This document shows, piece after piece, positions 22,501 through 39,565 of a stretch of 64,000 bases of DNA; within the stretch, counting starts at the first letter, position 1; each line of letters opens with the position of its first letter. The translations under genes and the position numbers were made by a program. Origin of the DNA: an uncultured Bacteroidales bacterium (GTDB lineage Bacteria; Bacteroidota; Bacteroidia; Bacteroidales; Paludibacteraceae); assembly GCA_902784585.1 (NCBI GenBank), contig CACZVM010000007.1, positions 1-64,000 of the forward strand, written 5' to 3'. Under the pieces are notes generated by a model. It had not been told where the DNA came from, ran no database searches, and saw only the letters and a list, made by a program, of their open reading frames with translations.

Positions 22501-22868
22501 TCGCTTGCCACATTACCCATTGCACACCAGTCGAAATAGACCGTATAGTCGTCACCAGAAGCCAATTGCTCCAGCGATATAGTATCATACGCGAAGTTCC
22601 AACAACCGGTACTCTCATACTGGGCATCGACACCGTCATTATTGGAGATATAGAGACCATAATGACCGTTCTTGTCATTATTACCCGGTTCGCCAATATA
22701 CCACTTGTTTTTCAACGAAGACGCAATTGTAGCATTTGCCGTAGGGTTCATCACCCAGCGATTGCGCGCCGCTTCGGACTCGAAATCACAGTTATAGTGT
22801 CTTACCGCCTGGGTCGGGAGTGCTATCAAGAGCAACGTCCACAACGCAAATATATTAATCTTCTTCAT
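19581..22868 (-). CDS. Secreted T9SS surface protein, paralogue of the upstream gene
   Basis: The 1,095-residue protein has a signal peptide (about 1-21, ending TQA), a MAM/anchor-J-like beta domain, and a fibronectin III domain (about 230-310, PTNLEVTPNGTTVSLTWNG). A large module shared with the upstream gene follows (DSRHVVHFDRTELDP, ASVRLGNW, WKDWTTVGVNL, HFGYAYFTLGC). Next come TCDS-type repeats and an Ig-like unit (RWNDVLAIRN, VQWYLDGQPIEGAT). The end (ITGYYLVELRSGNNRSIHPV, then LVK) fits a T9SS type A tail. The gene overlaps the upstream paralogue by 14 nt. An adhesin or matrix role is inferred; no catalytic motif is seen. Confidence 0.82.
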   Translation of the reverse strand: MKKINIFALWTLLLIALPTQAVRHYNCDFESEAARNRWVMNPTANATIASSLKNKWYIGEPGNNDKNGHYGLYISNNDGVDAQYESTGCWNFAYDTISLEQLASGDDYTVYFDWCAMGNVASDFDGLYLLWIPMTKPNGDSIKVRSIAFSSSSIPSQYEDYVVQLQPRSNIDYLGGTATWRQCAATIPGDDCDGTPHYLAFVWTNGSLLPQQPAAMVDNINITDNKPCDAPTNLEVTPNGTTVSLTWNGTATEYEVSAYSYDADTWAGPKLVTGNATSFTGLPIGQTDFIVRAKCDMDFYSLKTIVSKLIYYPDQMCVDYLNLNNAVCYINNSSPSDASNFEDFKVVRPVDHGPSSIDSRHVVHFDRTELDPNTGNMAKTVPQGELASVRLGNWDNGNEAERIEFSFEVDTIKYPVLLLKYLPILEAPGHGVQDDPRFKLDIIVGNTAIPCGHADFTCLDVWTGSSLKPGAEAQGWHVYTPTNTSYPKPIVWKDWTTVGVNLKQYAGQGQTITARLTTHDCTWDGHFGYAYFTLGCSDGKFKDMKCGQINPTFIAPDGFNYRWIKAEDEQYRHQDGSIDEKYVKWRTQTVEAGFHDDTLYVVDCMFVQDSTCYFSLYASTLATNPISVIQQPQILRHCTEGVYKVKLDGSDSWVQEIDHVTHDTLKNKNYHIETYEWNVEGLPHGWSDEPTPTFDLPAEGGVFPYSLRTTCGTCESVVYDTLRLEPLGPTHETQTFTLCDDVRKTGFVWAERIDTLYKTYGLLDSVVLMNEITTCDSVIRLELVEPYRIYVDTMVLTDSLPFHFHGREYTKTMIDTIPFPTTCDSTWVLNFEVYEPIGITPTTFYSLCEGADSLTLEYDVYRGRSQSAWYSFIDAVKHPLSTVEEKKGHYSFNVPIDPNMEPDMYSGVLYFEDAKPEFNVTVPFSLAIHYSSALIAQRWNDVLAIRNDAAVKDTLGHRGYDYDFSAVQWYLDGQPIEGATQFNYYTGVGQHLLYGHEYTALLTRKRDGAQVFTCACLPEEVSGYTDVPQLRTLVNAAAQMPVSGRGTAYWYDTLGRLHHSDSYDNSYITAPAITGYYLVELRSGNNRSIHPVLVK

Positions 22869-25800
22869 AACGAATGATGTATATGCCTGCCTGTGCAGGA
22901 GTTTGGAACACAGCGTCGCCGGTCATCAAGACATAGGAATTGACGAGTTGGCCGACTGCCGAATAGATGTATGCTTTGGTTGGTTTATCCACATGGATAC
23001 GTACTGCCTGACCGCCCGTTACAATAGTGGGATAATCAGACTGCTGCGGGCGATAAACCGGTTGGATTGGACAAGTAGCCATGCTGACACCATCTTCGCG
23101 GGTTACTACTACGTAGTAGGTAGCGGTAGTATCGAGCGGCTGGTAGAGATACGAGCGGGTCTCACCCTCGAGCGGCATACCATCTTTGTACCACTGGAAT
23201 GCCGTGAACTCATATCCGCCGTTGTACTTCGGATTAATCAGCGTGAGCACATCGTTCCACTTCTGCTCGACGATCGAACTGCGATAGCGAATGTCGATGT
23301 CGCGTTCCTCCACATGGAGACCGCAGCAGAACTGATAGAACGTGAGCGTAGCCGTATAGTGTCCGGGCAGGATATCGGCCGGATACGGGATGGCAATGCT
23401 GGATACGTAGGGATCATAGATCATTGTATCGCGCAGCAGCGGCGTAGAGAACGCTACCTGCAGACTATCATACTCACCGGCGGATATGTCGTAGTCCAGA
23501 TAGAACACCTCTTTGTCCGCACAAGCATAGCCGGGTTGGTCTACTGCCACCTGCAGCCGCTCGTTGACCGTCAGAGTGAGATAGATGGCACTATCGCAAC
23601 CATGGACAGTATGCATCATGATCAGATAGTTATCCAAAGGCTGATTGTAGGCAACACCGTTGATGATGACGCTCTGGTCGGAGCAGATCGAATCGTGACG
23701 ATGTATGTCTTCTGCCTTAGGATAAACATGGAGATACAAGGTGGAGAGGGAGTCGCAGCCCGCCTTATTGAGGAAATGTCCCACGTAGACCGTATCACGA
23801 TCGAACCACTGGCCATCGAAATGAACGGGTTCCTCGGGGCATCGCTGATAATGGAATTCCGTCGGTTCGGAGTAGATATTGGGTACCACGACAGTATCCA
23901 CACGCGTACTATCGCACGCATTGTTGGCACCTATATACGTAGTATAGGTTATCTCAATAGAATCCCCCTCCGGGCGGCACTGATAAGTAGGCGCCCAATA
24001 GGTAGATATATCCGTGCGACCGGTAATCAAACTCCGGAACACCCAGCGACCTTCATTACACAACTCACCGAAATTATGAGTTTCTGTCCCTTCCCACTTA
24101 TGCATGACATGCGAGGTATTGGTGAAATTCAACTTACTCTCACAATTGCCCAGCACATTTTCATAGGAGTATGCCGGTACCGGGAAACGTGGAGCGGAGA
24201 CGGTGCTTATCTCAAAGTAGCAATCGGGTTCTTCGATAAAGCTTACCTTGCAGGTATAGGTATGGAGGCCTGCATCCACCGTAAACTCTCGTTCGTGGCT
24301 CCAGATCACGTTGTTCTCGTCACGCCACTCATAGGCGAATCCCTCCGGCGCGACACAAGTCAGAGATGCATCGTTACCGCAGTTCTCGGTCTCGATATGT
24401 GCATTGGCGCAATCGAGCACGAAGTAAGCATATCCGTAGTGACCACCTGCACCACAGTCGTTGGTTGTGAAACGCACCTTAAGCGTACGACCATGGAAGC
24501 CCATGAGGTTGATACCCACAGTGGTCCAGTCTTTCCAAGCCACATCGTCTTTTCCGGGTTTATCCACTCTGTTCCATCCAGCCTCGACAGCCGAGGAATA
24601 AGAGAAATCCGCCTTACCGCAGAAGCCTCCTACTTCCTGGCCCTGCTCATCAAGGATGACCATATTGAAGCCCGGATCACCGCAAGAGGATCCCGGATGC
24701 TCCAAAACCACCGCATACTTAACAATCAAGATACCTTGAGAAGCTGTATCCACCGTAATATCATATGTGATTGACTCAGCCTCTCCACTGACATTCCAAT
24801 TGCCCAGACGCACAGAAGCCATGGCTCCGGGCGGTACGGTATGGAGCAAACTATCGGTACGCGGGTCTACCTCCGTCGGATCGACGTGAATCGTATGACG
24901 ACTGTCGCGGGAATCCGGACCGAAGTCAATGATACCAATGTTATCATACGGTGTGGAACCTTGATGATAGTTGTAGCGATGACCGTAGGTGCAAACCACC
25001 TTGGTAGTATCGTATATATTGAGATAATTAATACAGTGGTTCTCGGGGCAATAGACGAGGATATTGGTTTGATAGACATAATTCGTTCTCAGTTCTCCCG
25101 TTTCGGAGTCGGAATATCTACCGCGGATACGGACATCGTAACTACCCTCGAGTATCTTCTTAAGCGAATAGGAATAGATGCCAGTCGTAATATCGTGTGT
25201 GTAGCCATCCGGACCTTCAGAGATGCCCGTCACGCCACGTACCCAATCGGACTCACCTACCTTACGATACTGGATATCAAACACATTCGCAATATCATCT
25301 TGAGACTTCCACGTGACAAGCATTGTCGAATCGACGCACTGCGGATAAACCGCCAAGTCTATCGGCTTCTTAATTGCATTGGTATTGATCTGGAAATTAT
25401 CGATAGCAATACTGGTGCGATACACATCTTCTGAACTATTCTCATTGGCCCAGATAAAGACGAACACGAAGTCTTTCTTGGAATTAGAAGAGCTAACGCT
25501 GACCTCATTGGTAAACGACACATTCTGCCATGCTTCGCTACCGCACACAAACTTCTCGCCCGACTCACCAAGGGATTGGCAAGCAGCCACTTGTGCATTG
25601 GATAAACGCGCATTGGGCTGACTGAGAATAGCCTGAAGATTCGTCGCTCCTGCCGCAGTCAAGTCCTGCTCTCGGCAGAAGAGCACGTAGAGTTTGGATG
25701 TAGCGGAATCGCCCACTCCCTTCCAATCGAAACTGACATCATAATGTTGGGTATTCGTTGCCTGCGGGAAACGATAGCGCAACATCGTAACGACAATATT

Positions 25801-26055
25801 TGGATGGTTGCCGTAAACAGGATTTTGGCCATCAGAGGAGACATAGAGTGCCTTACGTCCCTCGCTATGGACGGCCGCACCTACCACCCACTGGTCGGTA
25901 GTACCGGAGGTGCCGTAGTTGAACGTCCAGCCCGTCATGGGGTCTCGATCCTCGAAACCACATTCATAGGGGAGGCCGGAAGCCACAATGGAACCTTGCG
26001 ACCAAGCCAGGACGCTGAAGAGTAAAATTATATGTAAGAGGATAATTTTCCTCAT
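22855..26055 (-). CDS. Secreted T9SS surface protein, paralogue of the downstream gene
   Basis: The 1,066-residue protein has a signal peptide ending near AWSQ, a MAM/anchor-J-like domain (about 28-220), and a fibronectin-like domain. The same large module as its neighbour follows (DSRHTIHVDPTEVDP, ASVRLGNW, WKDWTTVGINL, HYGYAYFVLDC), then GCDS repeats (AGCDSLSTLYLHV, HGCDSAIYLTLTV) and the WNDVL ... FQWYKDGMPLEG unit. The tail (AYIYSAVGQLVNSYVL ... AGIYIIRYEED) begins like a T9SS type A domain but stops about ten residues early, where the next gene's start codon overlaps it. Tandem duplication is the simplest origin of the pair. Confidence 0.82.
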   Translation of the reverse strand: MRKIILLHIILLFSVLAWSQGSIVASGLPYECGFEDRDPMTGWTFNYGTSGTTDQWVVGAAVHSEGRKALYVSSDGQNPVYGNHPNIVVTMLRYRFPQATNTQHYDVSFDWKGVGDSATSKLYVLFCREQDLTAAGATNLQAILSQPNARLSNAQVAACQSLGESGEKFVCGSEAWQNVSFTNEVSVSSSNSKKDFVFVFIWANENSSEDVYRTSIAIDNFQINTNAIKKPIDLAVYPQCVDSTMLVTWKSQDDIANVFDIQYRKVGESDWVRGVTGISEGPDGYTHDITTGIYSYSLKKILEGSYDVRIRGRYSDSETGELRTNYVYQTNILVYCPENHCINYLNIYDTTKVVCTYGHRYNYHQGSTPYDNIGIIDFGPDSRDSRHTIHVDPTEVDPRTDSLLHTVPPGAMASVRLGNWNVSGEAESITYDITVDTASQGILIVKYAVVLEHPGSSCGDPGFNMVILDEQGQEVGGFCGKADFSYSSAVEAGWNRVDKPGKDDVAWKDWTTVGINLMGFHGRTLKVRFTTNDCGAGGHYGYAYFVLDCANAHIETENCGNDASLTCVAPEGFAYEWRDENNVIWSHEREFTVDAGLHTYTCKVSFIEEPDCYFEISTVSAPRFPVPAYSYENVLGNCESKLNFTNTSHVMHKWEGTETHNFGELCNEGRWVFRSLITGRTDISTYWAPTYQCRPEGDSIEITYTTYIGANNACDSTRVDTVVVPNIYSEPTEFHYQRCPEEPVHFDGQWFDRDTVYVGHFLNKAGCDSLSTLYLHVYPKAEDIHRHDSICSDQSVIINGVAYNQPLDNYLIMMHTVHGCDSAIYLTLTVNERLQVAVDQPGYACADKEVFYLDYDISAGEYDSLQVAFSTPLLRDTMIYDPYVSSIAIPYPADILPGHYTATLTFYQFCCGLHVEERDIDIRYRSSIVEQKWNDVLTLINPKYNGGYEFTAFQWYKDGMPLEGETRSYLYQPLDTTATYYVVVTREDGVSMATCPIQPVYRPQQSDYPTIVTGGQAVRIHVDKPTKAYIYSAVGQLVNSYVLMTGDAVFQTPAQAGIYIIRYEED

Positions 26056-26100
26056 TTATGATTTATGATTTATGATTGCAAATTTATGATTTATGATTTA
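26053..26100. repeat. ATTTATG array spanning start and stop codons
   Basis: About six ATTTATG units (CATAAAT on the minus strand) fill the gap between the OmpA-type gene and the next gene. They supply both the TAA stop of the first and the ATG start of the second. Confidence 0.9.
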
Positions 26101-28545
26101 GAAGATCTGCTTAATATCTTTGTCGCCGGTGCCGGTGATGACGAACTCTACACGACGGTTGAGTTGGCGTCCCTCTTCGGTATCGTTGTCAGCCACATGT
26201 TCGCGTTCACCGCGACCTTCGGCGGTCATACGCTCGGCGGCTACGCCACGTTTGATCAGGTCAGCACGCACGGCATTGGCACGTCCCTCGGAGAGGATCT
26301 GGTTGGCCTCGTCGGTACCTACAGCATCGGTGTGACCGATGATATGGATCGTCACGCTGGGGTTCTCGAGCAAGAACTGCGCCAGATCGGACATCGCCTG
26401 CTCAGACTGCGGCAGGATATACGTCTTGTTGGTTGCGAAGAAGAGGTTCTCTATCTTAACCTTGATACCCTCCTTGATATGCTGCAGATATACATCGGCT
26501 GTATCGCGTACGAAGCGGATGGTGTCATCCTTCGGCATATAGCCCGTTGCACTCAGGTGAGCAATATAATTGCCCTCGGTGAGCGGCGTCTCGATGAAGC
26601 CGTCGTCGGACGACTGAGCGGCATAGAGCACCGTGGTATCGGAGAGAGCGGTCAGACGCACAGCAGCCTCGATCGGCTCGCGAGTGTCCACATCATATAT
26701 ATTCATACAGAGCGTATATACAATAGGCGCAGGAATGCGCTCCAAAGCCAGACGCAGGGTGTCGAACGAGAAATCTTCCACCGACTGAATGACTGTATCC
26801 GAAGGATAATAGCCATTCTTGGTAGCCGATACGCGGTACTGACCCGTCGCAAAACGGCCCTGCAACAGACCCTGACGGTTGGTATTCTTCTGCATGCGCT
26901 TGCCGGTCTCCACACTGGTGATCTCAACAGCCGCACCACCCAACGCAAGGGCAGAGTTCTCGTCGTATAGATAGACACCCATACGCGGCGTCGGCTTCTT
27001 CGGATATTCGCGTGTAGCTTTCTGCTTGCGCGGCAGGTTGAACCATACAGCCACCTTGGCTCCTACGAGGAAGGGATTTACCTTGGCATTAGCTGCCGAG
27101 GTGGTAGCCAGCGCAGAGGTGGAAGAATAATCCAGAGGATTAGCCGACGACATGAGCACCGCAGGTATATCCTGGGTAGCCTCGGGCCATCCGGCAATCG
27201 CCTCCGGCACCTGATACTTAAGCACATTGAGGAAACCGTAGTCCACAAAGACCGAAGCACGCACCTTCGCCTTGGACTTAACCCACTGATCGAGGTTAAC
27301 GCCGATCTCTGCGTGCGCAGCGGCATTGATGCCCCACTTGACAGAAGAAGAGGAACTATTCATCGCCTGATCGGTAACGAGCGTATGACTGAACATCTGC
27401 TCGAGGTCGGTGGTGAGTTCGGTATCGGTGATCGATGTGGTGAGACTGCCGCTGACGGACGACTGGCCCATCACGCCAAGACCCACCTTGACACCCGCCT
27501 GCCAGAACAGAGGAATGTTCTTCAGTTCCATACCGAACAAGACAGGAACTTGCACGAAGCCTCCTATCAGCTTGTCCTTCATCGAACGGAAAGCATAATG
27601 GTAGGTCATACGATCGGCATAAGGATCCATACCGAACGAGCGCGTGAGCGTACCCTCATCGTTGTTAGAGATGCCCATCTGTGAATTATAGAACGTGAAC
27701 TCCACGCCGGTGGTGAAGAGCATCTGCTTGTAGCGCAGCTGGTAGCCCAGGCCGAGGCCGCCGCCCACGAAACCGTTGTCTTTGTTCTTGAATCCCAGCG
27801 GATTAGCTCCTAGCGCAGCGGAATTGTCGTAGTTGATACCGGATGTAAAGAGGTTGCTATACCCCACCATTCCCCAGAAACCGAGACGATGGTCGATATC
27901 ACGATTGTTGTATGCTTCGGCGCGGGCATTTGCCTTGTCGATCGCCTCCACTTGCGCCATATACTGCGCTTTCTCCTCGGCGGCAGAAAGCTGGGGAGCG
28001 GGTGCTGCCTTGGCTACCTGCTTGGTTGACTTAGAAGACTGCTTCTTCTTAGCCTGAGTTTTGGATTGCTTTGCCTTCTGCTGAGCGGCCTTCTCCTTCT
28101 GCTGAGCTGCTTTAGCCTGCTGTTTCTCGCGATCGGCTTGCTGCTTGGCTTGCTGTTTCTCGCGATCAGCCTGCTGTTTAGCCTGCTGTTTCTCGCGATC
28201 GGCTTGCTGCTTGGCTTGCTGTTTCTCACGATCAGCCTGCTGCTTAGCTTGCTGTTTCTCGCGATCGGCTTGTTGCTTGGCTTGCTGTTTCTCACGCTCG
28301 GCTTTGGCCTTCGCCTGCTCTTTGGCGCGCTGCTCGCGTTCGCGTTGCTGCTGTGCCTTGGCTTTCTCACGCTCACGCTGCTGCTGCGCTTTCGCCTTCT
28401 CGCGATCGCGTTGCTGCTTAGTCTTCGCCTTATCGTCAGCAGAATAAACCACTGCTACCGAATTGTCCACTATAGAAGCCAGCGGGGCAATCATCGTCAT
28501 GCCCATTGCCAAAAGGAGTATGTAAAGGATTCGTTTCATCTTCAT
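26098..28545 (-). CDS. OmpA-family protein with Lys/Gln coiled repeats, outer-membrane barrel and two carboxypeptidase-regulatory-like domains
   Basis: The 815-residue protein has four parts. After a signal peptide (cleavage perhaps near 35), residues about 38-180 form a highly charged repeat, mostly the 11-residue unit REKQQAKQQAD, likely a long helix. Residues about 205-490 form a beta barrel similar to two other barrel proteins here. Two beta-sandwich units with carboxypeptidase-regulatory/PEGA-type look follow (VYLYDENSALALGGAAVEIT and NIYDVDTREPIEAAVRLTAL). The C-terminal OmpA domain (INGHTD-like IIGHTDAVGT, then GEREHVADNDTEEGRQLNRR) binds peptidoglycan. The start forms a TGATG overlap with the upstream barrel gene. 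It could anchor or help export the two secreted proteins encoded downstream; that is inference. Confidence 0.85.
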   Translation of the reverse strand: MKMKRILYILLLAMGMTMIAPLASIVDNSVAVVYSADDKAKTKQQRDREKAKAQQQREREKAKAQQQREREQRAKEQAKAKAEREKQQAKQQADREKQQAKQQADREKQQAKQQADREKQQAKQQADREKQQAKQQADREKQQAKAAQQKEKAAQQKAKQSKTQAKKKQSSKSTKQVAKAAPAPQLSAAEEKAQYMAQVEAIDKANARAEAYNNRDIDHRLGFWGMVGYSNLFTSGINYDNSAALGANPLGFKNKDNGFVGGGLGLGYQLRYKQMLFTTGVEFTFYNSQMGISNNDEGTLTRSFGMDPYADRMTYHYAFRSMKDKLIGGFVQVPVLFGMELKNIPLFWQAGVKVGLGVMGQSSVSGSLTTSITDTELTTDLEQMFSHTLVTDQAMNSSSSSVKWGINAAAHAEIGVNLDQWVKSKAKVRASVFVDYGFLNVLKYQVPEAIAGWPEATQDIPAVLMSSANPLDYSSTSALATTSAANAKVNPFLVGAKVAVWFNLPRKQKATREYPKKPTPRMGVYLYDENSALALGGAAVEITSVETGKRMQKNTNRQGLLQGRFATGQYRVSATKNGYYPSDTVIQSVEDFSFDTLRLALERIPAPIVYTLCMNIYDVDTREPIEAAVRLTALSDTTVLYAAQSSDDGFIETPLTEGNYIAHLSATGYMPKDDTIRFVRDTADVYLQHIKEGIKVKIENLFFATNKTYILPQSEQAMSDLAQFLLENPSVTIHIIGHTDAVGTDEANQILSEGRANAVRADLIKRGVAAERMTAEGRGEREHVADNDTEEGRQLNRRVEFVITGTGDKDIKQIF
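28111..28302. repeat. 33-nt coding tandem repeat (5-6 copies)
   Basis: Near-identical 33-nt units encode REKQQAKQQAD repeats of the OmpA-type protein. Copies differ at a few silent positions (GCGATCGGC versus ACGATCAGC), in an alternating pattern that hints at expansion of a two-unit block. Looser QQREREKAKA repeats continue to about 28430. Confidence 0.92.
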
Positions 28546-29504
28546 CAGTCTTTAATAGATTGGTTACCCAAGCGCTTACGATAGCCGCGCTGGTTCTTTT
28601 GGTTGTCGTAGATATAGGATTTGGCCTTGATCGGCATCTCAAATGCAATCGTATACTTGATACCCACACTCATATTACGCACCACTGCAGCATTGGAGAG
28701 GTTGCTGAGCATAAGGGGTTGAACGAAGAACTTCACGCCCTGATCGGTCTCGCGATACTCGAACGGCGGGAGTCCGCTTCCGCCTGTATGGATATTGAGC
28801 AGACCGAAATCCAGATATGCCGCCAGATACATACGCTTCTTGTCGGGATTGCGACGGAAGACCTGATAGAACGTGGTCTTATCGATACGCACACCCAATT
28901 CGGCATGCGCCATCAGCTGGAAGTTCCACTTAAGCGGCAGGGTACCGCTTCCCATATACTGGTTGGACTCAAACTGATGGTTCGGCATATCGAAGAAAGG
29001 ATCGTACGGACGTTCGTACTCGCCATACGTCGTGAAATGTGCGCCGGAGGATGTAGCACCATAGAGATTGATCGACATCTTCGGACCCACCATAAAATAG
29101 AAGCGTTTCCATTCGCCGCCCAGCAGAATCGGGATGTTGAGATTGATCATATGGGTCAAATCGCGCGCCTTATCCACCTGGACATGCATATCAAACAGCT
29201 CACCCTCGGTATCCATCATCGGCAGATAGAAGTCGAGCGAATTGATGCGATTGGCATGCAACTCGTAGAGAAACTCCGCACCGAAGGAGAAGATAAAATC
29301 GTTGTAGAAGACGCGATAGTCCGCACCCAGATTCAGGTTGAGGCCGGAAGCCGGCTGATAACCCTGGATGTCATGCAGCAAGGCCGAATAGCCCAAATCG
29401 GCATGTGTCGTCACGAAATGACGCAACTCCGGAGCCAAGCGTGTATGTGCGCTAGCGCACACGCTAGACACCACCCAACATAATATGAGGATATACCTTT
29501 TCAC
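28545..29504 (-). CDS. Outer-membrane beta-barrel protein, first gene of the surface operon
   Basis: The 319-residue protein has a signal peptide (MKRYILILCWVVSSVCASA) and then alternating beta strands of a small outer-membrane barrel. A core stretch, NIPILLGGEWKRFYFMVGPK at about 115-134, has clear counterparts in the OmpA-type protein (VPVLFGMELK) and in the barrel at 53417-54421 (VPLMVGVQHRRFYMLAGMK). These three are therefore paralogues. The C-terminal 30 residues are basic. Its stop and the next start share TGATG, showing coupling. PorT- or PorP/SprF-type roles in export are possible but not shown. The signal-peptide end contains a 14-bp perfect palindrome (29447-29460). Confidence 0.78.
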   Translation of the reverse strand: MKRYILILCWVVSSVCASAHTRLAPELRHFVTTHADLGYSALLHDIQGYQPASGLNLNLGADYRVFYNDFIFSFGAEFLYELHANRINSLDFYLPMMDTEGELFDMHVQVDKARDLTHMINLNIPILLGGEWKRFYFMVGPKMSINLYGATSSGAHFTTYGEYERPYDPFFDMPNHQFESNQYMGSGTLPLKWNFQLMAHAELGVRIDKTTFYQVFRRNPDKKRMYLAAYLDFGLLNIHTGGSGLPPFEYRETDQGVKFFVQPLMLSNLSNAAVVRNMSVGIKYTIAFEMPIKAKSYIYDNQKNQRGYRKRLGNQSIKD

Positions 29505-29701: not shown

Positions 29702-32700
29702 TTATTTTACTTCCACTTTCTGGCCGGTGATGTTGTAAACAACGCCGTTGATGAGGATGTAAACCTGGTTGTTGCGGATGAACTTAACAGCCTTGCTGCC
29801 AATGTTCGAATCAGCGTTCTCAAAGTCAGTCGGGTAATCCAGGTGCTTGATCAACAAGTTGTCGATAGCAGCCGGAGCACCATCGGAATCTGCATCATCG
29901 TTGGTCCAAACGAAGACGAGGCGATGGAGACCCGCAGCAATAGTCGGCGTAACAGCACTCTTGAGAGTCCAAGCAGCCTGCGATACAAGTGCTTGAGCGC
30001 CATCCAGTGCAATCCATTCCGCCGGCAGCGTAGTGCTGGTCAAACCAGCAGCGAGCACACCTGCTGTTAGTTCGACATCCGCCGGGATGAGAGCAACTCG
30101 CATGTAATCAAGTGCACCATCTTCCTCGTTGTACTCACCAACGCACTTATAGTCGTACGAAATAGTGAAGGTACCATCAACGGTGAAGTCGAAGAGCTTG
30201 GTTGCATAGGATACAGACGTAGCCTCATCATCGTAAGCATAAGCAGCACCATTGTTGGAGATATAGAGGGCATTGCTTTCCTCTGCAGCAGCACTGCCAA
30301 TCATCCAAGCGTTGGTCTGATCGCCATTGATAAACTTCCATCCAGCAGCGGACTCGAACTCATCGCTGTATTCGAACGATACAACCTGAGCGAACTCAAG
30401 CGTACTGAACTCGATAGAAACTGCTTCGCTATTGCCATCCTCACCACAAGCTCTACGCAGGTAGAAGATGTAGTCGGTGGACTCAGCAAGGCCGGTTACT
30501 ACAATAGAGTTAGCATCTGCAGGAACAGCGATGTAGTCAGGCAACAACTCCATGTTCGCCTGAACAACCGCGTACTCCCACGAAGCGCCAGCAACAGCCT
30601 TCCAAGTGAAGGTAGCACCATCATAGGTTTCGTCAGAAACAGCCAGGTGTTTCGGGTTCGGGCAAGCCGGACCTACGCCAGGAGCGTACTCAATCGTCAT
30701 CTTCGGCAAGAAGTTACGTTGAGCAAAGCTGGTACCGGTACCATAGCCACCCATAGAAGCACCTGTTGTAGTAACACCGTACCAGTTGCAACCAGCCCAA
30801 GTACCAGCGACGGTCTGCTTGATACCAATCATGAGGTTACCTCCTTCATATTGGAACGGTTGATCGAACGTAACTACCATCTTTTCGTCCACAATAGACA
30901 GGCTTGCAGCTGTCATGACTTGTGTCATTGCATCCCAATCAGCCTCTGCAGCGAGAGTGGCTTCGGGAGCCTCAGCTACGTAAACCTCGAAGAGCGCATC
31001 GCCCCAGGAAGTTCTAGTAGTACTCGTATATTTACCGTAGAAGGTCAGCGACTTGATCGAATCCCACTCCAACTCTTCCAGAGCAGTCTCCGGAATGATG
31101 AACTGGCTACGTTGAGAAGCATAATCCACATTAGATCCATTCACAGGTACATAACCGTTGGTAGCAGTACCATCGTTTACAGTGATCTGGTATGCTGCAG
31201 TCGGCTTGAAGGAGATAACAGCGCTATAGAGGCTCTTACCATCCAGTTCACCGCAGTCAGCCTTAACGCGAGCGTAGTAGGTAGTCTCAGCGGTCAGACC
31301 CGTGAGATCGAGCGTAGCAGAATCGCTTACCAATGCCACGATCGAATCGGACATATTGGCATTCTCACTATACTCAACAACCCAAGCCTGTTCGTCACCA
31401 CCGGCAACCCAGTTGAGGGTAGCAACGTTACCGTTACCCGGCGTGAGGACAGCAGCCAAACCGGTCGGAGCCGGGCAAGCAACAGTTGTCGTGAAGGACT
31501 TAGCGTCGGTCCACTTGCTGAAGCCGTCTTGCTCGCCGCAGTTAGCGCGCACGTATACATAATAGGTGTGCTCAGGCAATAGGTTAGCCAATACGTACGG
31601 ATTGTCGGTTACATCCAAGATGTTAGCCAATGTATCCGGACGGCTGGTAGCGATGGTATCATAAGCAATCTGCCATGCATCCTGGCCCTCAGCGGTCCAA
31701 GCCACCTTAGCGGTATGTGCCTTGATCTCAGAGATGTTCAGGCCGGTCGGCTTGATACAGCTCGGTACGAGGTCGATGAGCACATTGTCGATATGGAGGT
31801 TGTTGTCCGCATTGGTAACAGTAGACTCACCATAGAATGCCACCTTGATAGACTGACCGTTGTAAGCAGCGAGGCTGATAGCCACTTGCTCACCGGTAGC
31901 AGAACATGCGATGTTGTTGTAAACATACTCAGAGCTATCGTTATCCCATTGACGGAGGATCGTCCAGGTAGCTGCGTTATCCGTAGAAACGAGTACCACA
32001 AACTTGTCGTCTGTACCGGTGGTTGCCGGAGCACCCAGCGTACCAGAGAAAGCCGTCAATGCGAGATCGAAGGTCAGCTGTACATCACCATCAACAAATA
32101 CCGACGGAGTCTCCAACCAGTGGTAGCGAGCTGTTCCATAGATATTGATACGTGCGTGGTTGTCGAATACGCCATTGTTGGTACCGAAATACCATAAAGA
32201 TGCAGAAGTACGAGCTGTACCATTGAGCACATTGCTCAACAAACCGGCGTACTGGCTCCAATCAGTCGGAAGCGCTGTTCCGAACTTCTCCTCGAACGGA
32301 ACACCGTAAGCGGTCTTGAAGATCTGTTGCTGCGACCAAGCGTCCGAGCAAGCAGCTTGCACCTTCACGCTGTAGGAGGTATTAGTAGTAAGACCTTCGA
32401 GCAGATACGGGCTGCTGACATTATAGATTGTATCAGCATTCGCACCATCCGAATAAGTCAGGTTGAAGCCTGTCTGACCGTAGGTATTCCAGCTAATCAA
32501 CAACGAAGTAGGCGTAATGCTATCGGCCTGAAGATCACTCGGTGTCTGGCAGAGACTTGCAGTATGGAAGGTGAAGAGTTCACTCCACATACTATAGTCT
32601 TCGTTCTCGCCTTCGCTACAGTTCGCACGTACATACACGTGGTATAAGGTATCGGTTGCGAGTTCAGCGATTGCATACGGGAGAGCCGTTACATCGTGAA

Positions 32701-35700
32701 TATCCTCTGCCGTTACATTAGCAAGATCGAATGCCGGATCAGCCGAGTAAACGACTTGCCATGCATGCTGATCCTCTGTACCCTTCGTCCAGTTGAGAAC
32801 AGCCGAAGAAGAGGTGATATCAGAAACAGCGATGTTCTTCACCACGAAGCAGGTAGGCATCTCACCATGAACATGGTCAATCTTCACCTTCGGGTTGAAG
32901 TTACTCTTCGATGCAGCATTGGAACTATACTGATACATAGAGTTACCGGATACACCCGACTTACCATACCAAGAGCAAGATACATCCGTACCTGTTACAG
33001 TTTGCTTGAAGCCAATCAAGAGGTTACCGCCTTGGTACTGGAACGGTTTATCCAGGGTAACTTCCATCTGCTTGTTGGCAAGTTCGAGATGCTTCGAGTT
33101 CACAACTTTCTGCATGTCCGTCCATGCAACCATTGCAGAAAGAACCGTGTCATTCGTTTCAGCTACGTATACATCAAATTGAGCACCTTCCCAAGTTGCC
33201 GTAGTCGTGCTGGAGAAGAATGTCAGTTTTGTGATAGAATCCCACTGGATAGTAGCAATCTCTTTCTCCGGAATGATGAACTGGCTATTAGTTCCCATAT
33301 CTGCGTAGTATCCGTAGAACGGAACATAGCTACCGGTAGTTGTACCATCGTTGATGATGATAGCGTTCATCGGTGTGAAGGAGATCACATTAGACCACTC
33401 ACTCTCTTCTGTCTCACTACAAATTGCTTTTACGCGAGCGTAATAGGTAGAATCAGAGATGAGACCGGTGAGACTGAGTGTCGGCTCGGTTACATTCGCT
33501 GTGATAGCGTCTGCAAACTTAGGATCCATACCATATTGTACCTCCCAAGCGGAAGCAGCACCGGCAGCCCATTTGAGGGTAGCAATCGAACCTTGACCCT
33601 TCGTCAGAACAGCTGTTAAGCTATCCGGCTCGAGGCAGTTCGGAATCGAGTCAATCACGATGTCGTCAATATGAACACCCTTATAGGAAGAAGTAGGTGC
33701 ATCCATCTTGATAGCGATATACTTCGCTCCGCCTTCGTACGCATTGAACAATACTCTAAACGGCTCATAGGTTGCAGCCGAAGGAGTAATAGTATCCAAA
33801 GCCACATAAGTAGAAGCGTCAGCCGGATCGGACATGACACCTACCGTAAACGTAGCATTATACGAAGCAGAGTATTTACGCGCGTTGAAACGCATACGCA
33901 ATGCGCTGATACCCTCCATTTCCGGAAGAACAGCGTACTGATCCGTAACAGCTCCTGCAGTACTACTATAATATGCATAGAACTTCAAGCTGTTCAGGCC
34001 GGAGTTAGCATACGTAGCACCCTTGTATACCATCGGATAGGAGTTATACGAGGTGTTCGTACCGGTATTGATCTGGCTCCAGCAGAGCGGCAGGTTCTTA
34101 CCAGTAGTCTTACCCTCCATGATATCGAAGTTCTCGCTGTACGGGAATTCCGAAACAAGTGCACAACCGGTATGGATTGTAATCGGGATTGAATACTCGG
34201 AAGTATCCGTAGCACCACAGAGCGCTGCGACTTGTACATCGTAATAGGTAGCGGCTTTGAGACCGTCAATGACGAAGGCAGAGTCATTATCTGCAGCGAT
34301 AGTGGTCCAAACGGAATCAGTAGCCTCTTTGTACTGAACAGCCCAAGCTGTTTCGGAACCTTGTGCCTCCCATTTCAGAAGTACAGAGGAAGCCGTAGCA
34401 AGGCTGTCAACAGCCTCTACGTTCTCCGGTTTCTGACAATCCGGGATGTAGGAGATCTTGATATCATCGATACAGCAGGTATACTGGCCGCTATAGTTCC
34501 AGCGGAATACCAGACGATAAGCCTCGTCCGGAATCGTATCCAGTTTCGTCTCACGATAAGACATCGCTCCATTACTGCGTTCGTACGCAACCAAGTCATG
34601 GTAATACGCAGCCGTATCTATATATCCCAGATACAAAGTACCGTTGGTAGCACTCTCTGTTTGCATCCAGAATCCGATCTGCAAGAACTTGAGCGAATCA
34701 GCCAATTCCGGTAATGCAGCCAAGCAGTCACCCTTACCATGGAAGGTTAAGGCATTTGTTCCCTCATGCACGTAAGCGTACGAGGTACTCTTTGTCTTAT
34801 CCAAAATATGCGGGTAAACGGTTGCGCCATTAGCAATAGCTGCATCCCAACAAACAGGAACTACACCAGCAGCAGCATAGGTTGTACCCTCATAATCTTC
34901 AAAGCCTTCAATGAAGTCACCCTTCGTAGCAATAGAGTACGGCTCGCAAAGGGTAGCGATGGTGATCGGAGCGGTATACTCGCTGATAGCAGTCGAGTCT
35001 GCGGTATTACACCAAGCAGCTACGCGAACGTCGTAGATATTAGCAGCCTCCAAACCGGCAAGAACCAATGTATCGGACAATACAGAATCCGGAACGAGGG
35101 TCCAAACAGAGTCTGCAGTCTTCTTATACTGAACGAACCAGTTGGTTTCATTGAGACCCGGTGTCCAAGTGATCGTAGCCGAAGTGGTAGTGGTAAGACT
35201 ATCAATAACAGCCAAATCAGTCGGCTTCATACAAGACGGCAGCGCCTTCACTTCTACGTCATCCAAATACAAGTATGCATCACCGCTACCATAGTTACTG
35301 GTACCCTTGAAGTAGATAGTTACAATCTGACCGGTGTAATCAGAGAGGTTAATCTCATATGTAGACCAAGCAGAAATGCCTGCCAAATCGGTCTTCAATG
35401 GGATGCGATTCTCACCACCATCTTCAGAGATCAGCACCTCGCCTGCACCACCGGTAGGATTCTTCCAGCGGAAGGAAAGAACTGCATTCTCAGACAAGTT
35501 GATACGCGGCGTAGCCAAAACATTGGTGTTACCATTGCTATTTGAATACGAGTTGAAACGGAGGCATGTATCACCATTCGAAACATAACGATTCCATTTG
35601 TAGGTAGCACTAGTCGTTGTACCTTCTGAGTTGTCCCAATACTCGGGAATACCACTTGCGAGTCCGTTGAAGTTCTCGCTCCAAGGCATAGCCAGCGGCA

Positions 35701-38700
35701 ACGGCAAGGTCTTGAACTGGAGGCTGATAGCATCACTATTACCATCCTCACCACCACAAGCTTTGCGAACGAAGAACTTATAGAAAGTCTTCTCCGTGAG
35801 GCCGGTGAGTTGGATAGAGTTCTCCATATTCGGTACCTCAATGTAGTCGGAATCTGCCGGAACAGCAAAAGCACCTACTGAATCAGCAGCAACGAGTGCG
35901 TATTCGAACGACACACCCTCTACCTCATCCCAGTTGAACGTTACGCTCTCTGCGGTTAGGTCTGCATAAAGCAGGTTGGTTGGTTTCGGGCAAAGGATAC
36001 GCGCAATCTTGATGTTATCTACTGCAGCGGGAGGATTCTTTCCGCTGGTATACGTGTAGTTTCTCCATGCGAATACCATTTGATAGTAACCTACTTCCTC
36101 GATTGCCAGCTCAATGAGTTTGTGATTCCAAGCCGCACTATCCAGATTGAGTTTGCTACCGCCATCAAGTGCTACCCAACCGTCGGGTAACGTAGTAGTA
36201 CCAAATCCACTCAGAACCGTAGTAGCAGCTTCGAGCTCTACATCTGCAGGAATCAAAGCTACACGGAGGTAATCATTGGTACTGTAACCCCAGCATTTCC
36301 AATCATACTGGAAGGAATACATACCCGTTTGGTCGAAGTAGAAGGTCTTGGTAGCATATACCATAGCAGCCATACCTGTACCCTTCGAGTAAGCATAGGT
36401 ACCAAAGTTGTCATTGGAGATATAGAGTGCCTTAGAACCGTCAGCAGTTGCGCCATCACTCCAAACCCAGTGGTTCTCGAGGTCACCGTTGATCAGCATC
36501 CATCCGTTGCCGGCCTCAAAGTTGTGGTCGTACGGCAGGTTGGTCGGAGTCTGGATAGTAGCGAACTCTTTGACGAGCGTCTCGCTGTATTCGTTCTCAC
36601 CACAAACGCGACGAACGAAGAACAGATAATGGGTAGTCTCGGTAAGTTCGGTCATGGCGAAGGTAGTCTCGGTAGTAGTACCCATGAAGAGGGTGTCTGC
36701 CGGGACAAACTCACCAGCCGGTTTAACTACGTAGCCATACTGCCACGTACCATCCTCGTCAGCCTCCCATACTGCAGTTGCAGTTGTGCCTTGGATACCG
36801 GTGACATTCAGACTGGTTGCCTTTGCGCAAGCAGGGATGTCATCGATCTTCACATTGGCAATGTGGAGGTTGTTGCTTGCATCGGTTGCAACCGTCGATT
36901 CGCCATAGAAAGCGAGTTGGATACTATTGGCAGCATATGCGCTCATGTCAATCTTAGCCAACTGACCTTCGGTATTGATCTGATCCAACGAGAATCCTTC
37001 ACCACTATTGGTCCATTGAGCCAAAATAGTCCAAGAAGCACCACCGTTGGTAGTAACGAATACGTAGAACTTCTGCGAATTCTGCTTACCAGCTTCAACA
37101 GCCTGCTTATTACCCTCAGCCTTGGTAAATGCCAAGTCGAAAGTAAGCTGTTGATCCGCTTCCATCTCAATCGTCGGACCTACAATCCAGTATTTGGAAG
37201 TAGAGTCTTTGAGGTTGAGCACGAGGTGATGATCAGCAGAAGTGAAAATACTGTTGACAGCAGCCACATTCCAACCATTCTTAGTCGGCTCAAGGGCTGC
37301 ACCCTCGTTGATCACATCGCTAAGGAGTGCTTCATAACGCACCCACTCGCTAACCATTGTAGCCGTGTCAAAACTCTGAACAAACGGAACGCCCGAAGCT
37401 GTCTTGAAGGAGATTGCCTTGCAGAACTTGCTGGTGCCATCCTCTGCATCCGAGCACTTACCAGCCACGCGTACGTTGTACTCCGTAAAATCGAGGAGAC
37501 CGGTCAGCGTGTAAGGTTTCTCGGTAATGTTGAGCGTGGTATAGTTCTCGTCCGAAGCCTTCTTGTACTCGAGAATCCAAGCGGTTTCACCGCTCTTTGC
37601 ATTCCAGTCGAGTTTAGCCGAAGTCTTAGTAGTAAAACCAGGAACGAGCGTCAAACTATCCGGTGTCATACACGACGGTGCATTGTCGATAAGCACATGA
37701 CCCACGTGGATATCATTATCACCACCGGAAACGGTAGATTCACCGTAGAAGGCGATTTGGATCTCCTGACCGGCATATGCGCTCAGGTCAATCTCTACTT
37801 CTTCGCCAGCAACCGGAATCTCGTTGTACACATAGGACGAACCCTGGTTGTCCCATTGCTGGAGGATAGACCATGTCTGGCAGCTGTCCGTAGAAATGAG
37901 TACCACCAACTTGTCGTCTTGCTGTGAGGTAGGATTCTCAATCGGATCCTCGTTGTTGTAATCCGTTAAAGCCACCTGATAGGTAAGCACATAATTGCCA
38001 CCTTCCGGCAGCGGAATCATCGGACTGATAATCCAATGCTTGCAAGAGGTACCATAGAGGTTCATGTAAGCGTGCGGACCACCGAGAATATTCGGTTGAC
38101 CGCCGCGTGCGCCGAAGTACCATGAACCACCTGATGTAAGCGGAGTGGTGCCTGCCATCACTTGATCCAGCAGACCTGTTGCTTTGGTCCAGTCGCCTTG
38201 CGTGGCAAGAGCATCTGCATACGGAATACCGATCAGCGTCTTGAACGAAGCGCTCTTGTAGCCACTGGTGTTTTCGCCACACACACTCTGTACGCGAACT
38301 TGGTAGGAAGTGTAAGGAGTGAGGTTTGCCAAAGGAATAGCAGTCAAAGTGGTGTTCTTTACCAGGAACGTCCAATCTTCATAACTACCGCCCTTGATCT
38401 CGACGTTGTAGGTACCACTACCACCAGCCACGTTCAGCGTAGCACTGTTGGCAGTCACATCCGTGATGTCGACTGTCTCAGGCTTGTCGCAGACAACGAC
38501 CGGGCCACCACCAGGAGTGTACTCAAAGGTACATTTCGGGAGATAAGCCACTACGCTACCAGCTGCAGAGCTACTGTTACGATAGCGACTTGCGCCGGCC
38601 AAAGATACGCAGTAGAACGATGCGCTCTTGTAGTTGCCTGCGGTCGTAACCAGCCAGTCGAACACAAGATTGCCACCATTGTAGGTGTACCCGTCTTCGA

Positions 38701-39091
38701 AGACAACTGTCAATGTTGTGCCTGTGGCATCCATTGCACCGGAGTAAACCGCAGTCAGGTCTGTGTCGATGAATCCTCCGGACAATGATGTCTCTTCGGT
38801 CTCACCGATGCTAACCTGGAACGTACCGGTCCATGCAGCCGCAGCAGGAGAAGACAGATAGAATGTCATCTGCGAGATGGTACCGCCATTCATAGCAGTC
38901 AACGAATCTGCCGGATAGATACACTGTGAACGTGCACCCTGGGTATCCGCATACAGACCGTATGTCGGGACATTACTACTCGTAGACGTACCATCAGCCA
39001 CAGTTAATTCACTCTGTGCCTTTACCTGCAAACTTACACAACATAGCATTACCATCATGAGGCATGCTAGTTTTTGAGTAAATTTTCTCAT
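29702..39091 (-). CDS. Giant secreted modular surface protein (3,129 residues)
   Basis: A signal peptide ending KAQ is followed by a repeating architecture. A module of about 165 residues with an NDGT-like opening occurs three times, starting near residues 27, 1908 and 2634 (ADGTSTSSNVPTYGLY, NDGTTTGSYVPFYGYY, NDGTATNGYVPV). About eight choice-of-anchor-J/MAM-like beta domains start near 285, 566, 854, 1136, 1387, 1649, 2261 and 2904. About twelve fibronectin III domains sit between them (for example ATITWTPGLNETNWFVQYKK). Such beta-sandwich strings occur in adhesins and glycan- or matrix-binding proteins. The last 30 residues (K-F-I-R-N-N ... I-L-I-N-G ... G-Q-K-V) match the tail of the amylase. 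No catalytic motif was seen. It appears monocistronic. Confidence 0.85.
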   Translation of the reverse strand: MRKFTQKLACLMMVMLCCVSLQVKAQSELTVADGTSTSSNVPTYGLYADTQGARSQCIYPADSLTAMNGGTISQMTFYLSSPAAAAWTGTFQVSIGETEETSLSGGFIDTDLTAVYSGAMDATGTTLTVVFEDGYTYNGGNLVFDWLVTTAGNYKSASFYCVSLAGASRYRNSSSAAGSVVAYLPKCTFEYTPGGGPVVVCDKPETVDITDVTANSATLNVAGGSGTYNVEIKGGSYEDWTFLVKNTTLTAIPLANLTPYTSYQVRVQSVCGENTSGYKSASFKTLIGIPYADALATQGDWTKATGLLDQVMAGTTPLTSGGSWYFGARGGQPNILGGPHAYMNLYGTSCKHWIISPMIPLPEGGNYVLTYQVALTDYNNEDPIENPTSQQDDKLVVLISTDSCQTWSILQQWDNQGSSYVYNEIPVAGEEVEIDLSAYAGQEIQIAFYGESTVSGGDNDIHVGHVLIDNAPSCMTPDSLTLVPGFTTKTSAKLDWNAKSGETAWILEYKKASDENYTTLNITEKPYTLTGLLDFTEYNVRVAGKCSDAEDGTSKFCKAISFKTASGVPFVQSFDTATMVSEWVRYEALLSDVINEGAALEPTKNGWNVAAVNSIFTSADHHLVLNLKDSTSKYWIVGPTIEMEADQQLTFDLAFTKAEGNKQAVEAGKQNSQKFYVFVTTNGGASWTILAQWTNSGEGFSLDQINTEGQLAKIDMSAYAANSIQLAFYGESTVATDASNNLHIANVKIDDIPACAKATSLNVTGIQGTTATAVWEADEDGTWQYGYVVKPAGEFVPADTLFMGTTTETTFAMTELTETTHYLFFVRRVCGENEYSETLVKEFATIQTPTNLPYDHNFEAGNGWMLINGDLENHWVWSDGATADGSKALYISNDNFGTYAYSKGTGMAAMVYATKTFYFDQTGMYSFQYDWKCWGYSTNDYLRVALIPADVELEAATTVLSGFGTTTLPDGWVALDGGSKLNLDSAAWNHKLIELAIEEVGYYQMVFAWRNYTYTSGKNPPAAVDNIKIARILCPKPTNLLYADLTAESVTFNWDEVEGVSFEYALVAADSVGAFAVPADSDYIEVPNMENSIQLTGLTEKTFYKFFVRKACGGEDGNSDAISLQFKTLPLPLAMPWSENFNGLASGIPEYWDNSEGTTTSATYKWNRYVSNGDTCLRFNSYSNSNGNTNVLATPRINLSENAVLSFRWKNPTGGAGEVLISEDGGENRIPLKTDLAGISAWSTYEINLSDYTGQIVTIYFKGTSNYGSGDAYLYLDDVEVKALPSCMKPTDLAVIDSLTTTTSATITWTPGLNETNWFVQYKKTADSVWTLVPDSVLSDTLVLAGLEAANIYDVRVAAWCNTADSTAISEYTAPITIATLCEPYSIATKGDFIEGFEDYEGTTYAAAGVVPVCWDAAIANGATVYPHILDKTKSTSYAYVHEGTNALTFHGKGDCLAALPELADSLKFLQIGFWMQTESATNGTLYLGYIDTAAYYHDLVAYERSNGAMSYRETKLDTIPDEAYRLVFRWNYSGQYTCCIDDIKISYIPDCQKPENVEAVDSLATASSVLLKWEAQGSETAWAVQYKEATDSVWTTIAADNDSAFVIDGLKAATYYDVQVAALCGATDTSEYSIPITIHTGCALVSEFPYSENFDIMEGKTTGKNLPLCWSQINTGTNTSYNSYPMVYKGATYANSGLNSLKFYAYYSSTAGAVTDQYAVLPEMEGISALRMRFNARKYSASYNATFTVGVMSDPADASTYVALDTITPSAATYEPFRVLFNAYEGGAKYIAIKMDAPTSSYKGVHIDDIVIDSIPNCLEPDSLTAVLTKGQGSIATLKWAAGAASAWEVQYGMDPKFADAITANVTEPTLSLTGLISDSTYYARVKAICSETEESEWSNVISFTPMNAIIINDGTTTGSYVPFYGYYADMGTNSQFIIPEKEIATIQWDSITKLTFFSSTTTATWEGAQFDVYVAETNDTVLSAMVAWTDMQKVVNSKHLELANKQMEVTLDKPFQYQGGNLLIGFKQTVTGTDVSCSWYGKSGVSGNSMYQYSSNAASKSNFNPKVKIDHVHGEMPTCFVVKNIAVSDITSSSAVLNWTKGTEDQHAWQVVYSADPAFDLANVTAEDIHDVTALPYAIAELATDTLYHVYVRANCSEGENEDYSMWSELFTFHTASLCQTPSDLQADSITPTSLLISWNTYGQTGFNLTYSDGANADTIYNVSSPYLLEGLTTNTSYSVKVQAACSDAWSQQQIFKTAYGVPFEEKFGTALPTDWSQYAGLLSNVLNGTARTSASLWYFGTNNGVFDNHARINIYGTARYHWLETPSVFVDGDVQLTFDLALTAFSGTLGAPATTGTDDKFVVLVSTDNAATWTILRQWDNDSSEYVYNNIACSATGEQVAISLAAYNGQSIKVAFYGESTVTNADNNLHIDNVLIDLVPSCIKPTGLNISEIKAHTAKVAWTAEGQDAWQIAYDTIATSRPDTLANILDVTDNPYVLANLLPEHTYYVYVRANCGEQDGFSKWTDAKSFTTTVACPAPTGLAAVLTPGNGNVATLNWVAGGDEQAWVVEYSENANMSDSIVALVSDSATLDLTGLTAETTYYARVKADCGELDGKSLYSAVISFKPTAAYQITVNDGTATNGYVPVNGSNVDYASQRSQFIIPETALEELEWDSIKSLTFYGKYTSTTRTSWGDALFEVYVAEAPEATLAAEADWDAMTQVMTAASLSIVDEKMVVTFDQPFQYEGGNLMIGIKQTVAGTWAGCNWYGVTTTGASMGGYGTGTSFAQRNFLPKMTIEYAPGVGPACPNPKHLAVSDETYDGATFTWKAVAGASWEYAVVQANMELLPDYIAVPADANSIVVTGLAESTDYIFYLRRACGEDGNSEAVSIEFSTLEFAQVVSFEYSDEFESAAGWKFINGDQTNAWMIGSAAAEESNALYISNNGAAYAYDDEATSVSYATKLFDFTVDGTFTISYDYKCVGEYNEEDGALDYMRVALIPADVELTAGVLAAGLTSTTLPAEWIALDGAQALVSQAAWTLKSAVTPTIAAGLHRLVFVWTNDDADSDGAPAAIDNLLIKHLDYPTDFENADSNIGSKAVKFIRNNQVYILINGVVYNITGQKVEVK

Positions 39092-39405: not shown

Positions 39406-39506
<101 letters not shown>

Positions 39507-39512
39507 GCAATC

Positions 39513-39548
39513 AAAAAAAGCGTTCGCGGGGAAGCGAACGCCTTTTTG
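39513..39548 (-). terminator. Terminator of the 3,333-residue protein gene
   Basis: A perfect eight-base-pair stem (GCGTTCGC / GCGAACGC) around a six-base loop is followed on the minus strand by TTTTTTTG. Plus-strand T-runs make it potentially bidirectional. Confidence 0.9.
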
Positions 39549-39565
39549 ATGAAAGCGGGAGCGGA

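Follow-up and report, generated by a model that had tools for sequence, protein, structure and literature searches.

A short C-terminal tail on secreted proteins of a Paludibacteraceae genus that looks like a new, shorter variant of the T9SS signal

The stretch of DNA analysed here (the window; 64,000 nucleotides from an uncultured Bacteroidales bacterium of the family Paludibacteraceae) encodes four secreted proteins that share a short pattern at their C termini, which raises the question of what this ending does. The first-pass annotation had proposed a second class of surface-sorting signal. We recovered the pattern at the same positions in all four proteins, in frame and with a stop codon directly after it, and aligning the four shows no variation at the K, I, G, and Q. 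The tails, the proteins that carry them, and two further secreted proteins lie as follows.

1322..3850, + strand: alpha-amylase with a catalytic domain, CBM26, and a short tail (PF00128, PF16738)
3731..3850, + strand: short alpha-amylase tail, junction by eye between SP and ALDI, running through the last residue; conserved core 3770-3850
19584..22868, - strand: P0004, secreted, with an end that looks like type A by eye only (no model match)
22858..26055, - strand: P0005, secreted, with a weak type A T9SS end (TIGR04183 and the genus type A model)
29705..29827, - strand: short tail of giant 1, junction by eye between PT and DFEN, stop at 29702-29704; tail-model match
29705..39091, - strand: giant 1, 3,129 aa, with a signal peptide, a fibronectin III string (PF00041, 12 stretches), and a short tail
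39569..39694, - strand: short tail of giant 2, junction by eye between PE and GVEQ, stop at 39566-39568; tail-model match
39569..49567, - strand: giant 2, with MAM (PF00629), fibronectin III (PF00041), signal peptide MKKHLLMLFAALTVATMSLNA, and a short tail
60787..60906, - strand: short tail of the right-edge protein, junction by eye between LT and GFDP, stop at 60784-60786; tail-model match
60787..64000, - strand: right-edge protein, C-terminal part; the ORF runs past the window

The amylase tail is assigned on its translation, a match to the tail model, its predicted fold, and the swap among homologs described below. Each of the four proteins had been expected to have a signal peptide or an unseen N terminus, and this was borne out: the whole ORF of the right-edge protein (L050) is 3,359 aa and has a signal peptide in the part outside the window, and the amylase has one by eye, MKRTSILLTGLIMTLVPMLA, that the signal-peptide heuristic overlooked. 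Two parts of the original description needed adjustment. The proteins had been called otherwise unrelated, which does not apply to giants 1 and 2, both of which have fibronectin III domains. The length given, 27 to 31 residues, describes the conserved pattern; the signal itself is probably longer, with a PT/GI-like junction placed by eye 40 to 42 residues from the end. Behind giant 2, at 39416-39565 on the minus strand, there is a low-complexity stretch, one frame of which reads SIYLSIYLSIYLSI.

T9SS cargo is commonly recognised in genomes by the model TIGR04183. When the four tails were compared with Pfam and NCBIfam, no family covered them. They had no match to TIGR04183 or PF18962 at E values up to 10 (HMMER filters drop most matches above 0.1) and no type B (TIGR04131) or type C (ChiA) match in NCBIfam; sub-threshold Pfam matches to Cyt-b5 and S4 were taken as chance. 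Thus, as the first-pass annotation had suspected, no TIGR04183 or other Pfam or NCBIfam model places the four tails within a named T9SS family. The same annotation had assigned type A tails to both proteins between 19.6 and 26 kb. This stands for P0005, whose end scores below the cut-off with TIGR04183 (14.1 bits; cut-off, 23) and reaches 20.5 bits with the genus type A model over residues 1008 to 1064 of 1066. It does not stand for P0004, which matched none of the models tried (family models including TIGR04183, and the genus type A model) and resembles type A by eye only.

To build the tail model, we used the four window tails only, and this profile was searched against six frames of the 1.63-Mb genome that contains the window (G000; 79% complete) at E values up to 10. 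It returned 43 tails, 39 of them beyond the seeds (best nonseed E value, 4.5e-12). All 43 lie 0 to 7 residues from a stop codon, and 36 of the proteins have a signal peptide (35 by the heuristic plus the amylase by eye). The matches sit at the extreme C terminus, mostly on signal-peptide proteins, as had been anticipated. The other seven ORFs comprise six that are short, at a contig edge, or frameshifted looking, plus T39 (T numbers are the tail proteins of this genome; L numbers are fetched loci), for which the heuristic flag was spurious (an internal GTG) and whose hydrophobic start has no basic residue. Because there are 43 matches genome-wide and all are near a stop, a chance resemblance among the four tails was ruled out. 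Another 150 loci came from other genomes (120 picked by a tail-like DNA pattern and 30 type A loci). Of the 143 model matches in them, 142 end 0 to 6 residues before the stop, and the remaining one is a short ORF. A signal peptide was found in 72 of 85 complete tail ORFs from these loci versus 82 of 236 other ORFs with a minimum length of 300 residues, the latter being a crude control that includes nongene frames.

Several other features of these tails were observed. Nine of the 43 tail proteins (T07, T10, T14, T19, T21, T29, T30, T33, and T36) lie on contig C4 of the source genome at ~90 to 124 kb (L053, L054), and some of them have BLAST similarity to the amylase. Orphan or frameshifted-looking tails are present at G000:C14:27645-27716 (L043), G000:C7:82239-82313 (L068), and G000:C15:12708-12818 (L047); one stands behind an ORF that we take to be sugar-kinase-like, and the rest stand behind bodies that continue in another frame. 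The linker ahead of the tail core is sometimes repeat-like (ITNHQSPITN, ITDDQSPKTN, or ITNDQSPITN, at G000:C2:33447, G000:C4:123305, and several L loci), and perhaps a dispersed DNA repeat lies at the junction.

Across 181 tails, the pattern starts with T-[GA]-[IVL]-[ED]-[NED], continues with a variable stretch, and then has the core A-x-K-[VIL]-[LI]-R-N-G-Q-[IL]-[FY]-I-[LI]-R-[GD]-[GDE]-K-x-Y-[TND]-x-x-G-Q-x-V-[KR], in which the columns from N-G-Q to K are inflated because the set was partly chosen by a pattern spanning them. The 43 source-genome tails, which were not selected in this way and belong to different proteins, have the K, the I, and the last G each at least 90% conserved. The chain ends 1 to 8 residues past that last Gly, which closes a motif-B-like Y-x-x-x-G, in 182 of 185 tails. 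Given an alignment of 59 tails and queried with that of the window amylase, AlphaFold2 predicted three strands (20-25, 28-33, and 36-38) with a core pLDDT of 93 to 95 and a mean of 85.4, and none of 183 Foldseek matches of this predicted tail in the PDB reached an E value of 0.001 or better. Ahead of the core, the junction motif [GA][IVL][ED][NEDQ] was present in 18 of 40 source-genome tails (and absent from 22) versus 0.6% of 1,900 background segments, and a looser version was present in 22 of 40 versus 0.7%, both motifs having been composed after the tails were seen. The first motif also fits 70 of 134 tails in the pattern-selected set; among type A ends, it fits 7 of 27 in the general set and 1 of the 5 type A-like ends of amylases. 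Among the window tails, it fits one of four and the looser motif fits three.

The strongest evidence for the proposed T9SS link is the swap between tail and type A domain among homologs. We took the 30 best TIGR04183 loci of five genus genomes, all above the cut-off, which gave 28 usable bodies. For 10 of these 28 type A proteins, a tail-bearing homolog could be aligned up to a point no more than 35 residues from the junction in either protein, and seven different tail proteins account for the 10 pairs. Identity is 38 to 57% in six pairs (L206, L207, L220, L223, L230, and L231); the other four are distant, at 23 to 30% (L218, L225, L228, and L232), and may reflect shared repeat domains. The best swaps pair T19 of the source genome with L220, L223, and L231, at 52 to 57% over ~490 residues. 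The window amylase provides a second case, with matches in 26 of 81 genus genomes. Of the 24 amylase loci that reach the C terminus (the window's own included), 19 end in the short tail (18 by the tail model, and L255 by eye and not by the model) and 5 have a type A-like end. Those five ends score 12.4 to 18.1 bits with the genus type A model, and their best NCBIfam match is TIGR04183, at 15.3 to 17.5 bits, below its cut-off of 23. On a tree of the amylase bodies, well-supported branches force at least four changes of ending, and the endings show no more clustering than permuted labels do (146 of 500 permutations were as low). Tail and TIGR04183 counts in 37 genus genomes are inversely related (Spearman, -0.46, P = 0.004; Pearson, -0.61), a correlation uncorrected for phylogeny. 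Because homologs carry either ending, these results suggest that the tail is functionally equivalent to a type A domain.

The tail may also descend from the domain that it replaces. At maximum sensitivity, the tail model found its best match on 32 type A ends at the mid-domain Y-x-x-x-G (motif B) in 23, located 29 to 49 residues before the end, with 4 best matches in the last 10 residues and 5 elsewhere or nowhere. The scores exceed those of 960 shuffles (P = 1.2e-17) and of 810 body segments (P = 2.8e-16) and are low in absolute terms, with a maximum of 6.1 bits next to 5.9 for the best shuffle. In a profile comparison, 42 columns of the amylase tails aligned collinearly with the type A-like amylase ends (P = 2.7e-4; probability, 42%), and the alignment with the general type A set was weak (13 columns at motif B; probability, 19 to 22%). 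A search for a type A remnant behind the stop, in three frames of 140 genes with the genus type A model, gave nothing significant (best, 4.5 bits). Derivation of the tail from a type A domain by loss of its second half is the simplest interpretation and is moderately supported by these comparisons. In such a derivation, the junction, the NG-x-LYI strand, and motif B (Y-x-x-x-G) would have been kept and the part with motifs D and E would be gone.

We examined which genomes carry the tail and whether they have the T9SS genes. At an E value of 0.01, tails were found in all 37 genus genomes (source genome included), at 9 to 102 each; the 24 genomes sampled from 24 other families of the order had none. 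We also drew 393 genomes across the order (E value, 0.001; no more than 19 candidates scored in each) and found tails in 10, of which 3 belong to this genus and 7 to other families with 1 to 7 tails each; the three genomes in this draw from other genera of the same family had none. Fourteen matches fetched from the seven other-family genomes lie 0 to 8 residues from the stop and include three proteins that are presumably pectate-lyase-like and seven tails of similar sequence from one genome, and SprA was found in all seven genomes. The tail DNA pattern is present in at least 120 public records, and the 80 listed are labelled Bacteroidales, Paludibacteraceae, or (once) Bacteroidia, with many from ruminant guts. 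One genome from another family, G351 (family f30; L192 to L197), has seven proteins whose tails closely resemble one another (KYIENGMLIIEVNGVKYDVTGRVIK and variants), possibly a second, independent short signal.

Within the genus, SprA was found in 35 of 37 genomes, PorU in 36, and a PorV-family match in all 37 (a distant match only in G026), in keeping with the expected co-occurrence of the tails with porU and porV. In the source genome, PorV (C2:93681-94739) comes after PorU (C2:90177-93440), whose own frame ends in a TIGR04183 domain above the cut-off (C2:93186-93389). However, SprA is present in 371 of the 393 genomes of the order, where the T9SS is nearly universal, and its presence is therefore weak evidence alone; tails in 10 of 371 SprA-positive versus 0 of 22 SprA-negative genomes do not make the co-occurrence discriminating. 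An expansion of PorV in the genus was considered and rejected (1 to 5 family matches per genome, pieces included, versus 0 to 6 elsewhere).

How the tail compares with known signals bears on whether it is new. Type A CTDs are 70 to 100 residues long and have a seven-stranded Ig-like fold in which motif B is followed by D and E. The tail resembles this class (TIGR04183, PF18962) in its place on homologs, its motif-B-like Y-x-x-x-G with the preceding strand, and a partly similar junction, but it is about half as long, lacks motifs D and E after B, and has three predicted strands rather than seven. Tail matches outnumber TIGR04183 matches in 35 of 37 genus genomes, at different E limits. Like type B (TIGR04131) and type C (ChiA), the tail would be an alternative C-terminal class of T9SS cargo; it is shorter than these, which have ~100 residues or more according to the available text of two reports (PMC10202324, PMC12618676), and the four tails have no NCBIfam match.

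The closest published signals are those of Prevotella intermedia, for which the available text of Ye et al. (2025, PMC11969387) describes 48 short CTDs of 43 to 55 residues from the cleavage site, with PT/GI cleavage, motifs B, D, and E in order, and three predicted strands. Cleavage and glycosylation were shown experimentally, and that text names P. intermedia as the one species in which long and short CTDs have been reported together (PMC11969387). The present tail would likewise be a short C-terminal signal on diverse proteins beside long type A domains; it has three strands in a single sheet (predicted in both cases) and, in part of the tails, a junction resembling PT/GI. It seems shorter, at 40 to 42 residues in the window from a junction placed by eye versus 43 to 55, and, as far as published descriptions allow comparison, it ends just past the motif-B-like Gly whereas the P. 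intermedia CTDs keep B, D, and E. With regard to the first-pass suggestion that the tail might be a known variant, short T9SS signals have been published, as the available text shows, and those signals appear to be longer and keep D and E (PMC11969387). The literature searched, which covers few subscription papers and few preprints, gave no report of the present tail. On these comparisons, the tail looks like a new, shorter variant of the T9SS signal.

Because the tail and the type A domain alternate at the ends of homologs and the genus has SprA, PorU, and PorV, we consider it likely that the tail is a T9SS sorting signal standing in for type A, probably from its first half. The idea of a second class of surface-sorting signal gains from the C-terminal position, the mostly signal-peptide-bearing proteins, the SprA/PorU/PorV genomes, and the replacement of type A in homologs. 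The tail would probably be read by the same T9SS rather than by a separate system. In this model, the signal peptide, seen by sequence for most of the proteins, would take them to the periplasm (Sec). The tail, with its three predicted strands and then its Y-x-x-x-G-Q-x-V-K end, would pass through SprA and most likely be handed to the PorV shuttle; PorU would cut ~40 residues before the C terminus, at the PT/GI-like junction, leaving the cargo to be anchored on the surface or released. We infer these transport steps (SprA, PorV, PorU, and anchoring or release) from the known T9SS pathway and the genes present. A more specific proposal, that the genus replaced most of its type A domains by a ~40-residue signal ending at motif B without D and E, with a different, smaller recognition code (the known one truncated or even rearranged) for PorV or a barrel of its own, seems to us evenly balanced.

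That proposal depends on where the motifs lie. Sequence matching places motif B last in the tail, but the strands allow another reading, in which strand 1 and the NG would be motif B, G-x-x-Y-I would be D, and the conserved K would be E, making the tail a slightly more compact form of the P. intermedia short CTD. Both signals are short and C-terminal, three strands are predicted for each, and the junction of part of the tails resembles the PT/GI of the available text (PMC11969387); G-x-x-[YF]-I followed by the conserved K is the order expected for D and E. This assignment is nevertheless doubtful in our view, since of 32 type A ends of the genus 23 match the tail model at motif B and 4 within the last 10 residues, and the tail itself stops 1 to 8 residues after the Y-x-x-x-G Gly in 182 of 185. 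The tail might instead be collected by a shuttle other than PorV, such as its own outer-membrane barrel. The genes around the giants matter here.

26101..28545, - strand: OmpA-domain protein, behind the barrel gene (PF00691, 68.1 bits)
28548..29504, - strand: outer-membrane beta-barrel protein, directly behind giant 1 (PF13568, 28.4 bits; cut-off, 27)
50179-51774, - strand: GldJ/GldK-like protein, upstream of giant 2 (TIGR03524, 341 bits, cut-off 458; TIGR03525, 217 bits, cut-off 350)

The barrel is directly behind giant 1, which leaves room for another shuttle, and it is possibly a dedicated partner or shuttle for that protein; together with the OmpA-domain gene, it recalls the adhesin-PorP/SprF pairing of type B in the available text of PMC12618676, where type B signals are read by PorP/SprF and type A domains by PorV. 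The four tails, moreover, match no named T9SS model. Yet the barrel has no PorP/SprF match in NCBIfam or Pfam and belongs to no NCBIfam family, and the ORFs directly behind the amylase and behind the right-edge protein are an ABC-transporter ATPase and an ORF without a family. Homologs that carry either the tail or the PorV-read type A (PMC12618676, available text) also weigh against a separate shuttle, which we consider unlikely. Several other features of this neighbourhood were observed. Barrel, OmpA-domain protein, P0005, and P0004 form a one-strand run behind giant 1 (19584-29504, minus strand) that recalls T9SS adhesin-shuttle cassettes. The OmpA-domain protein is weakly similar to the PorE family of the T9SS (NF052230, 84.2 bits; cut-off, 600). 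The GldJ/GldK-like protein is a relative of a T9SS or gliding lipoprotein below the model cut-offs, and glycine cleavage protein H is also encoded upstream of giant 2.

Two further explanations were considered. As a carbohydrate-binding hairpin, it would hold its protein noncovalently on a surface polysaccharide, and some nonsignificant Foldseek matches are indeed to glucan- or choline-binding structures (best E value, 0.84). The tail has no Pfam family, is nearly always C-terminal, and occupies the place of a T9SS domain, so that a hairpin of this kind is very improbable. We give almost no credence to the idea that the tail is a decayed type A remnant without function. Its resemblance to the first half of type A and the few orphan or frameshifted tails would suit decay, but the K, I, and G each stay at least 90% conserved among the 43 tails, which sit on different proteins of one genome, nothing significant lies behind the stop of 140 genes by the type A model, and there are up to 102 copies per genome.

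The reading of the tail as a T9SS signal in place of type A would have consequences for how this system is understood. According to the available text of two papers (PMC11285876, PMC11969387), export in Porphyromonas requires the C-terminal 22 residues of Hbp35, which include motifs D and E, and likewise the extreme end of RgpB. If the tail is truly without D and E, then the last two strands that carry these motifs would not be needed everywhere for T9SS export, and the Porphyromonas-type requirement would not be general. The natural swaps would offer ready pairs for finding the smallest T9SS signal and the part of it that is read by the shuttle. Across the 37 genus genomes, the tail model has 2,281 matches versus 499 for TIGR04183; therefore, should the tail prove to be a T9SS signal, much of the T9SS cargo in these gut bacteria escapes annotation.
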